Positions 30,707 through 32,932 of a stretch of 44,701 bases of DNA are shown here, piece by piece. This DNA is from Armatimonadota bacterium (GTDB lineage: Bacteria; Armatimonadota; JAAZEB01). The stretch's first letter is position 1. Every line of letters begins with the position of its first letter. A program made the position numbers and the translations under genes. A model generated the notes under the pieces. The model made no database searches. It saw nothing but the letters and a program-made list of their open reading frames with translations, and was not told the DNA's origin. Location: NCBI GenBank assembly GCA_012512505.1, contig JAAZEB010000142.1:1-44701 (forward strand), in the 5' to 3' direction.

Positions 30707-31699
30707 TTAGCTCAAGTCGGGCGGGCCGCCGCGCGCTTTGTCCTGAAGGATGCGATCCGCCTCCGGCTTGGTGTCGCCCGGCTGCAGCTCCAGTTCGCGA
30801 ATCATCCGCGCAATCGGGGTTGCCGGATCGTTGGACCAGAAGATGCCTTCATCCTCCGCCTCGCTGTAGCGGAAGTCAACGCGGTCGCCATAGCGTTCCC
30901 GCAACGCCGCGCCGTTGCGCAGCGCCGGCTGCCACTGGAGGATGGCGAACTCCAGGTCAATCTCCGCGACCAGCACTCGCTCTTCCGGCCGGGTGATGGA
31001 GTAGAGCAGGTGCCCGGTGGGGTCGACCAGTGAGGCGTTGTTGCGCCAGGTGCTGGTCAGCACGTAGTAGCGGCCGCGCAGCGCCCGGCAGGCGGCCCGC
31101 ACCTTGCCGGGCGACTGGGTGGACCAGACCACCAGTTCTGCCCCCTTGCGGCGCAGCACCTCCCAGCCTTCGTCATACGCCATATCCCAGCAGATCTGCA
31201 CGCCCACCTTGCCGAAGTCACAGTCAAACACGGGGAAGTTGCGGCCAGGCACGCAGCCGCCCTCCAGGCTGCCATCTTCCATCACCACTAGGTGAACCTT
31301 GCGGTAGGTGCCAACCACCTCGCCCCGGCGCCCGAGCAGCACCGCGGCGTTGAAGGTCTCCTGGCGTCCGGTGTGCGGGTTGCGCTCCTTCAGCAGCAGC
31401 GGCACCAGGAGGTAGCAGCGGTGCTCGCGGGCCTTGGTGCCAAAGTAGCCGTGGATCTCCCCGGCGAAAGGGAAACCGCCCTCGGGTCCGAGCGGCAGCC
31501 CGCCGCTGACGGCCACCTCGGGGAGCGCCGCGAGGTCCAGGCCGCGGTCATAGCGCGCTCTGGCCTGCTGGGCCATCTCGTCCACCAGCGTGCCCAGTTC
31601 TTCCAGGCGGGCGCGCAGCCCGGGGTAGTCGCCCCACATCGCGTACATGCACGTACCCACCACCACCTTGCGCGGGCCGCCCTCACTCTCACTTCGCAT
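30707..31699 (-). CDS. Nitrilase-superfamily carbon-nitrogen hydrolase
   Basis: 330 residues. The catalytic triad is visible: Glu in L-P-E-V-A-V near residue 53, Lys in Y-R-K-V-H-L near 130, and Cys in G-V-Q-I-C-W-D near 163. N-A-A-V-L-L-G-R-R-G-E-V-V-G and N-N-A-S-L-V-D-P-T-G also fit the fold. These cytoplasmic enzymes hydrolyse amides, carbamoyl groups or nitriles; the substrate is unknown. The R-Y-Y-V-L-T-S-T-W-R-N-N region resembles N-carbamoyl amidohydrolase-like members. The ATG at 31699 has AAAGAGG upstream and is preferred over an earlier one (31726). It converges on the VanX-like gene, and its promoter must lie in the palindrome-rich gap upstream. Confidence 0.88.
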   Translation of the reverse strand: MRSESEGGPRKVVVGTCMYAMWGDYPGLRARLEELGTLVDEMAQQARARYDRGLDLAALPEVAVSGGLPLGPEGGFPFAGEIHGYFGTKAREHRCYLLVPLLLKERNPHTGRQETFNAAVLLGRRGEVVGTYRKVHLVVMEDGSLEGGCVPGRNFPVFDCDFGKVGVQICWDMAYDEGWEVLRRKGAELVVWSTQSPGKVRAACRALRGRYYVLTSTWRNNASLVDPTGHLLYSITRPEERVLVAEIDLEFAILQWQPALRNGAALRERYGDRVDFRYSEAEDEGIFWSNDPATPIARMIRELELQPGDTKPEADRILQDKARGGPPDLS

Positions 31700-32146
31700 C
31701 GTCGTTCGCCTCTTTCTCGGTCGCAAACCCGAGGAACAACCCCCTCATGGGAACAGGCCGCCCTGCCCCCTCCCGTAGGAGCCATCCATGCCCGGCAGGC
31801 GGGCACCCAAGAGGATGAAAATGGGGCTCTGTCGCCAATCCGGGAGGCAGGCAGCCGATCCGCACCCCGAAGGGGTGCCATCACCCAGCCCAGGGTGCCG
31901 CACCCTGGGATACCCCACGGGCGCATTTCGCCTAACCCTGAAAGGGTTGGACCGGGGAACCCCCGTTGTGAAACCCTTTCAGGGTTTCGGGGCTGGGCAC
32001 GGGCGGGTTTCCCCAGGGTTCGGAACCCTGGGCTATTCGGATCGCCGGCGTCCCGCCGGCTAACCCGGGCCATCGGCAGCCCTCGCGCCTCCTACGCCGG
32101 CCGGCGAGACGCCGGCGAGACGGCCTATCAGGGGCGGAGACTCCTC
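31700..32146. other. 447-base gap filled mainly by a palindrome array
   Basis: There is no credible gene. Open frames across the array on both strands translate into low-complexity strings such as G-F-R-T-L-G and N-P-E-R-V, which come from the palindromes themselves. The gap is upstream of the nitrilase-family gene and downstream of the phosphopantetheinyl transferase. Bases 31700-31861 must hold the nitrilase promoter; no clear motif was found. Confidence 0.6.
31862..32116. repeat. Array of eight perfect mini-hairpins with three-base loops
   Basis: Arms (left/right): 31862-31868/31872-31878, 31889-31897/31901-31909, 31934-31939/31943-31948, 31953-31957/31961-31965, 31971-31977/31981-31987, 32012-32020/32024-32032, 32044-32050/32054-32060 and 32100-32106/32110-32116. 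Stems are 5-9 bp with no mismatch, and every loop is exactly three bases. Sequences differ between units but several share CCCTGG or CCCT-type arms. Spacers range from 4 to 39 bases. It is not a CRISPR because the repeats are not identical. It is best described as a dispersed palindromic repeat cluster. Confidence 0.8.
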
Positions 32147-32932
32147 TTACGCCGGGCTATCGGCCGGCGCCCACTCGAAACAACGGAGGCGCAGGCCGTG
32201 CCCTTCAACCGCCAACGCGCCCACCCAGCCGTTCCCAGGCTCCAGGTGCATCAGCGACCAGCGGCACGCCTCTGCCGGATCCGGCCGCGTGCCGAGCAAG
32301 GCCGCCGGCTCGCCCGGCGCCAGCGAGACGTCGAAGCTGTCCAGCGGCAGCAAGAGGCCCCTGCCGGTCGCCTTGACGTAGGCCTCCTTACGCGTCCAGC
32401 AACGAAAGAAGCCGGCGCACCGCTCCGCTTCTGGCAGGCGCTCCAGCGCGGCCACCTCGCGCGGCGAGAAGAACCGTCGGGCGATCCCCTCGCGCATGAC
32501 CTCCGGGCGGATCCGCTCCACATCGATGCCAACCGCGCGGCCGCACGTCAGGGCATAGAGCGCCAGGCCACCCGAGTGAGACAGGTTGAACTGCAGGTCG
32601 CCCGCTGCTGGCTCCGCCAGCGCCGGCTTACCCCACGGGCCGTAGACGAAGCGCACCGCGCCTGGCGTGCTGCCCAGCGCGCGCGCCAGGATGTCGCGCA
32701 AGATCCCCCGGGCGGCGATGAAGCGGTTGCGGTCGTCCTCAAAGCGGAAGCGCGCCGCCCGCTCGCGTTCGTCGGGCTGGAGCGTCTCCAGAAGCGCGCC
32801 CACCCGCGGCACCGCCTGGTCCAGGGAGGCGCGCCAGACGTGTACCTCCGCCGCGCCAGGCAGCGCAGCGGCGGGCGCCGGCAGCCAAGCGGACCCCTCC
32901 ACGGCCCCGTTCGCCTCCAACACCCACGCCAT
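32147..32932 (-). CDS. Sfp-type 4'-phosphopantetheinyl transferase
   Basis: 261 residues. G-P-W-G-K-P near residue 98, F-N-L-S-H-S-G near 115, G-I-D-V-E-R near 134 and F-F-R-C-W-T-R-K-E-A-Y-V-K-A-T-G-R-G near 175-192 are the three signature regions of the Sfp/HetI/AcpT group. It loads the phosphopantetheine arm from CoA onto carrier proteins of fatty-acid, polyketide or non-ribosomal peptide systems; magnesium is bound by the aspartate and glutamates. No carrier protein or synthase is in the window, so it probably acts in trans. The ATG at 32932 is the only start giving the full N-terminal half; the ribosome site is a modest GGGG. It follows the SGNH hydrolase by 28 bases and may be in one transcript with it. 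Confidence 0.92.
   Translation of the reverse strand: MAWVLEANGAVEGSAWLPAPAAALPGAAEVHVWRASLDQAVPRVGALLETLQPDERERAARFRFEDDRNRFIAARGILRDILARALGSTPGAVRFVYGPWGKPALAEPAAGDLQFNLSHSGGLALYALTCGRAVGIDVERIRPEVMREGIARRFFSPREVAALERLPEAERCAGFFRCWTRKEAYVKATGRGLLLPLDSFDVSLAPGEPAALLGTRPDPAEACRWSLMHLEPGNGWVGALAVEGHGLRLRCFEWAPADSPA

Follow-up and report, generated by a model that had tools for sequence, protein, structure and literature searches.

The hairpin array at 31862-32034 of the window (the whole stretch of 44,701 nucleotides that was analysed, from the Armatimonadota genome G000) is very probably a non-autonomous derivative, i.e. a MITE or REPIN, of a single-stranded DNA transposon that encodes only a Y1 HUH transposase of about 150 amino acids, with the Rfam family RF01687 (Acido-Lenti-1) corresponding to the H2+H1 part of the transposon ends. 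Triple-hairpin ends are shared between the array and transposase-flanking sequences, RF01687 is associated with the transposase, and the edges of a mobile unit could be read in genome G122; these findings make a MITE, with two ends joined without the gene, the best reading of the array. The shared architecture, the association with one clade of transposases and the dispersal were observed directly, and one genome also showed the edge of a mobile unit lying 3 bp beyond H1. The parts of the element in the window, unstranded unless a strand is given, are the following.

31773-31861, + strand: repeat A, left portion; this larger, dispersed repeat houses the array and recurs elsewhere in the genome with and without it
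31862-31878: H1, GCACCCC-GAA-GGGGTGC, the outer hairpin at the left end of the transposon; H1+H2 align with RF01687 on the - strand (31863-31909) at 31.8 bits, below the gathering score of 37
31889-31909: H2, CCCAGGGTG-CCG-CACCCTGGG, homologous to H2 of transposase-flanking ends
31934-31948: H3, AACCCT-GAA-AGGGTT, the inner hairpin at the left end, matching the GCCCTTTCAGGGC-type H3 between H2 and the transposase gene
31949-31969: 21-nt centre joining both ends, including a 5-bp hairpin at 31953-31965
31970-31988: H3', GAAACCCT-TTC-AGGGTTTC, the inner hairpin at the right end, assigned from the inverted repeat, the stem count and the comparison with H3
32012-32032: H2', CCCAGGGTT-CGG-AACCCTGGG, followed by CTA
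32033-32041, + strand: junction where the right end of other copies (linker and H1', CACCCCTTCGGGGTG) is missing and the second repeat starts, from the alignment of L001 with L002-L008
32042-32118: piece of the second dispersed repeat, B, with hairpins at 32044-32060 (loop TCC) and 32100-32116 (loop AGA)

Full-form copies in the alignment run H1 CACCCCGAAGGGGTG, H2 CCCAGGGTGCCGCACCCTGGG, H3 AACCCTGAAAGGGTT, centre, H3', H2' and H1', and the window copy lost its H1' at about 32035, where the second repeat family starts. In its first six hairpins a 30-nt inverted repeat, 83% complementary, mirrors H1-H2-H3; since each hairpin is palindromic and their order is mirrored, the whole element from H1 to H1' is also a long inverted repeat. 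In sister copies both H1+H2 and H2'+H1' match RF01687, six reaching 37.1 bits, and the matches at the two ends of the array point in opposite orientations.

Between H2 and the transposase gene, a third stem of at least 5 bp was present at 19 of 29 ends, against 2.7 expected by shuffling. This third hairpin is mostly GCCC(T)TTCAGGGC and lies mostly 17-25 nt from H2; the H3' of the window (CCCTTTCAGGG), 23 nt from H2', is its counterpart. Spacing in the ends is about 12 nt from H1 to H2 and about 17-25 nt from H2 to H3, and H2 is nearly always followed on its 3' side by CT[AG] (YAG on the 5' side of the other strand), with an exact GTAG in some cases (L167). With the third hairpin placed between H2 and the gene, the autonomous element thus reads H1-H2-H3-tnpA-H3'-H2'-H1'. 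The window array has the same ordered ends, without the gene and with the last hairpin lost, and its centre, 21 nt long against 31 nt in L322, occupies the position of the transposase gene in the autonomous relatives.

Several RF01687 matches adjoin Y1_Tnp genes among Armatimonadota genomes, and around 90 Y1 loci perfect hairpins reach 8.4 per kb at 100-250 bp from the Y1 domain compared with 1.2 per kb at 700-1000 bp. Selection by hairpins was to be avoided, and loci were therefore picked by the transposase protein alone: 80 loci of public genomes were fetched by protein similarity to an alignment of six transposases (A1), and 40 of these, belonging to Verrucomicrobia, Planctomycetes, Acidobacteria, Lentisphaerae and others, were scanned with Rfam. 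RF01687 was found at most 200 bp from the transposase gene in 29 of the 40, mostly 40-60 bp away, and was not found within this distance at the remaining 11. The matches were mostly on the - strand upstream and on the + strand downstream, and their density was 6.0 per kb at 50-100 bp from the gene compared with 0.19 per kb at 800-1500 bp. As a control, 20 other Armatimonadota Y1 loci were scanned, and RF01687 was found at none of them.

Misframed proteins from some contig-edge loci (L143, L148, L151 and others) were left out of the analysis; for the same reason, the upstream and downstream labels given to L143 in the comparison of hairpins around Y1 genes, and the gene model of L185, are unreliable. 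In a tree of 75 rows, 32 of the 35 RF01687-flanked transposases fall in one clade, whose support of 87/82 is below the support mark, and the RF01687-flanking label changes 13 times, compared with 25 when shuffled. End sequences that drifted below the reach of the model would fit the clade members lacking an RF01687 signal. The motif Y---Q--HH is present in 33 of the 35 flanked proteins; furthermore, all eight transposases tested exceed the cut-off of NF033573 (IS200/IS605), and the score of NF047646 (RAYT) in eight tested is at most 23.7 against a cut-off of 80.

Evidence of mobility comes from other genomes. The closed genome G122 carries two 653-bp copies, 98.5% identical, between unlike flanks, and the shared unit starts with GCA-H1 and finishes with H1'-TGC, which places its edges 3 bp outside the outer hairpins; a target duplication was not seen at these two copies. 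The hairpin repeats flanking one G122 transposase occur 24 times in that genome and have matches in one of nine other genomes tested (G110), where the copies also adjoin a Y1 gene. In the same way, the hairpin repeats of G029 have 25 matches in their own genome compared with a few weak ones elsewhere. Gene-less six-hairpin elements of the same order were found in G001 (same family) and in G072 (another family). Outside H1, several of the G072 elements (L325, L328, L329, L330) have a flank of about 36 bp in common, GGGGGTATGCAGTTGACTCTCGCTACGGCATCGCTCA; the window genome is thus not the only one in which such elements are nested in a larger repeat. We consider it likely that a widespread Y1 HUH lineage close to IS200/IS605, with the "subclass 1.2" motif, has ends of three ordered mini-hairpins and gives rise to six-hairpin MITEs without the gene in Armatimonadota and probably in other phyla, Acido-Lenti-1 being a fragment of its ends and not an RNA.

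In G000 itself, about 31862-32035 is one copy of a 174-bp repeat, for which a whole-genome search returned 12 near-complete copies, 88-97% identical, together with partial ones. The repeated unit occurs mostly inside repeat A, which exists in three states: with the full array, with a single H1 (seven places, loop GAA or TTC), or with no hairpin. Both loops are seen among the single-H1 copies (L024-L030), which fits deletion between the direct repeats H1 and H1'; these copies are either losses or empty sites before insertion. Repeat A was also seen to resemble an imperfect palindrome around H1 (L024-L030, L031, L033, L034, L036, L038).

Since most array copies lie inside repeat A, the two may have spread jointly by another route. 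On this basis it can be argued that the array spread in G000 only as a passenger of A, through recombination or another transposase, and that its likeness to Y1 ends is an old, functionless relic. The A flanks common to most complete copies and the existence of A with a single H1 or none are in keeping with this, as is the failure to find a Y1 gene: a PF01797 (Y1_Tnp) match was not found in the 96.9% complete assembly of G000, and the clade transposase protein gave only a chance-level match there (E = 0.2), so that the cognate enzyme was not found in G000 but is present in relatives. The explanation is nonetheless rather unlikely, as G000 has another Acido-Lenti-1 array (L102, 47 bits) that is outside the A flank sequences, and the same six-hairpin element is present in G001 and G072. 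Moreover, it concerns the recent spread of the array and not its identity, and is compatible with the MITE explanation.

The G000 assembly consists of 396 contigs, and Y1 genes with such ends are often located at contig edges (L143, L150, L167, L187); the transposase may have been lost or may lie outside the assembly, both being possible. No Y1 gene having been found, the array copies in G000 are probably either relics or copies mobilised by an enzyme that has been lost or is missing from the assembly, and their putative identity as MITEs is based on homology of the ends. The first-pass annotation had proposed REP-like elements and a TnpA-REP (RAYT) gene as a lead, which is borne out by the relatives of the hairpins that bracket Y1 (TnpA) genes, but not by G000, where no such gene was found. 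It had also described the hairpins as non-identical units, a description that holds only in part: they are copies of one defined mobile element together with part of another repeat, and decayed copies of one insertion element, which it had named as the explanation opposed to its own, largely account for the window array.

The second repeat family, B, covers about 32037-32118 and is found in some 40 places in G000. Its copies (window 32042-32118; L040-L068) carry 7-bp GCCGGCG/CGCCGGC hairpins with a loop that is nearly always TCC/GGA or TCT/AGA, often adjoining CCGTAGGAG, and form a separate REP-like family. Intergenic mosaics of the same genome (L021, L027, L031, L033, L036, L038) also contain a third motif that is dispersed, GTAGCGGAGCGCCGCAGCGATGCGGC ... 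GCCCGATGGCTCGGGCACTCCGG, which has two hairpins.

Acido-Lenti-1 is filed as an sRNA gene in Rfam. In a report of 2010 it was called a probable RNA (PMC2864571), and a 2026 paper describes it as little understood, with gene regulation as a guess (PMC13298647). According to the latter, copies are located downstream of protease genes in Tannerella forsythia, for which regulation was suggested; under the transposon reading, they would be transposon ends or REP-like relics. RF01687 matches were found in 31 of 151 Armatimonadota genomes, some of which hold dozens. In the accessible literature naming Acido-Lenti-1, subscription papers and supplements being outside the search, a link to transposons was not found, and both the ends with three hairpins and the identification of Acido-Lenti-1 appear to be new, whereas REP/RAYT-like biology was already known.

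The family and the array could accordingly be a transcribed structured RNA (an sRNA, a terminator or an mRNA-decay barrier), the proximity of the transposase being incidental or regulatory. Besides the classification just cited, the very stable fold of the long form (z = -6.5) speaks for such an RNA, and REPs can act secondarily as RNA hairpins (PMC3733652). We nevertheless regard this as improbable. RF01687 occurs as inverted pairs, one copy at either end of the transposase gene and likewise of the array, so that within each pair one copy has the wrong orientation for a single RNA; the copies are dispersed and genome-specific, and a mobile unit ends by the outer hairpins. The model, filed as an sRNA in Rfam, matches the H2+H1 of each transposon end; here the family has the behaviour of the outer segment of such an end in a DNA transposon.

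The pattern of substitution bears on the same question. Structured RNAs are normally expected to have G-U pairs on their own strand. Over 13 stem pairs in 35 distinct ends (455 stem cells), 98.7% were paired, and the stem changes comprised 56 two-sided and no one-sided ones, hence no G-U intermediates; a cruder count over 48 ends gave 679 Watson-Crick pairs, one G-T and 10 A-C, which likewise argues against an RNA. Together, the lack of G-U pairs and the inverted pairs favour hairpins selected as a DNA palindrome rather than as RNA, as judged from sequence comparison. Selection on the fold, claimed initially from the window, is thereby supported across species; recognition of a triloop as such finds no support in the H2 loops, which are 3-4 nt in relatives.

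The array is situated between genes for a carbon-nitrogen hydrolase (30707-31726, - strand) and a 4'-phosphopantetheinyl transferase (32147-32932, - strand). Within 31862-32116 (255 bp), nine stems pair perfectly over 5 bp or more around a three-base loop, at 31862-31878, 31889-31909, 31934-31948, 31953-31965, 31969-31981, 31970-31988, 32012-32032, 32044-32060 and 32100-32116; eight are distinct, 31970-31988 overlapping 31969-31981. Dinucleotide shuffles of the array stretch (n=1000) gave a mean of 0.76 stems and a maximum of 5, which confirms the eight-hairpin array as real, and no other 255-bp stretch of the window has a higher stem density. Random clustering of palindromes in intergenic DNA of high G+C content, which the G+C content of 67% and the slight enrichment of three-base-loop stems over the whole window (93 vs 77 +/- 9) might suggest, is already refuted by these counts, by the genome-wide repetition and by the covariation across phyla.

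Two further properties ascribed to the array at first hold only in part. Perfect stems with a three-base loop are present, but the loop of a perfect odd palindrome may be taken as 1, 3, 5 or 7 bases long, and both 21-mer hairpins also pair as 10 bp plus 1 base; as odd palindromes allow several loop lengths, a loop of "exactly three" is partly a counting artefact. Nor do the eight hairpins form one series, as the first six belong to one repeat and the last two to a different repeat family. The early judgement that the array is not a CRISPR was correct, this reading being ruled out by the absence of repeat-spacer order. Mitochondrial-style double-hairpin elements offer an analogy only, and hammerhead and microRNA matches in Rfam were under the gathering scores and were taken as chance.

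As regards known systems, the elements share with REP/REPIN-RAYT the short, genome-specific intergenic palindromes, their inverted pairs and a link to a Y1 HUH gene of low copy number that has these palindromes on both sides; the YAG on the 5' side of the foot of H2 may correspond to the GT[AG]G guide of RAYT systems (PMC6006769, PMC3116915). They differ in having three hairpins per end instead of one, in a GTAG tag that is mostly inexact, and in proteins that fall under the NCBIfam RAYT cut-off but over that of IS200/IS605. With IS200/IS605 and their MITEs they have in common the Y1 transposase family (NF033573), subterminal hairpins and, in G122, no visible target duplication; however, IS200/IS605 have one subterminal hairpin per end, compared with three here, the outer one 3 bp from the unit edge. 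Likeness to TnpA_Y1 subclass 1.2 concerns the Y---Q--HH motif, the low copy number and closeness to IS200 (PMC6006769). Quentin et al. (2018) described that subclass as generally without typical IS200 terminal structures and mostly found in Cyanobacteria and Bacteroidetes (PMC6006769), whereas the present transposases, likened to it by motif, have triple-hairpin ends and occur in other phyla. Finally, Di Nocera et al. (2013) reported Y1 genes with double palindromic TIRs (TIRYT/TIRtrons), one group of them in Acidobacteria (PMC3733652). Palindromic inverted repeats flank Y1 genes in both cases, but most TIRYTs fall in subclass 2.1, with GGGGWSAS TIRs in many of them; in the accessible part of that account, no connection with Acido-Lenti-1 or with a third hairpin was found.

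By analogy with IS200/IS605 and RAYT/REP (PMC6006769, PMC3116915), the hairpins would fold on single-stranded DNA during replication and be bound in folded form by the Y1 transposase (TnpA). The enzyme may use a short guide beside the hairpin foot, for which the YAG next to H2 is the best candidate, and would cut near the outer hairpin, freeing the unit between both ends; a gene-less unit with intact ends could then be moved in trans. Recognising Acido-Lenti-1 as a transposon end would change the annotation of many genomes and provide a Y1 transposase group without described ends with a candidate substrate, and multi-hairpin ends could serve to probe how single-stranded DNA is read by HUH transposases.

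Other paired hairpins, e.g. CCCCCGATtaaaATCGGGGG + AATCCGCctgcGCGGATT, were observed at the Armatimonadota Y1 genes L207, L208, L216, L163 and L175. RF01687 was not found at L207, the one locus among them that was scanned, and these loci probably represent further families of the same kind.
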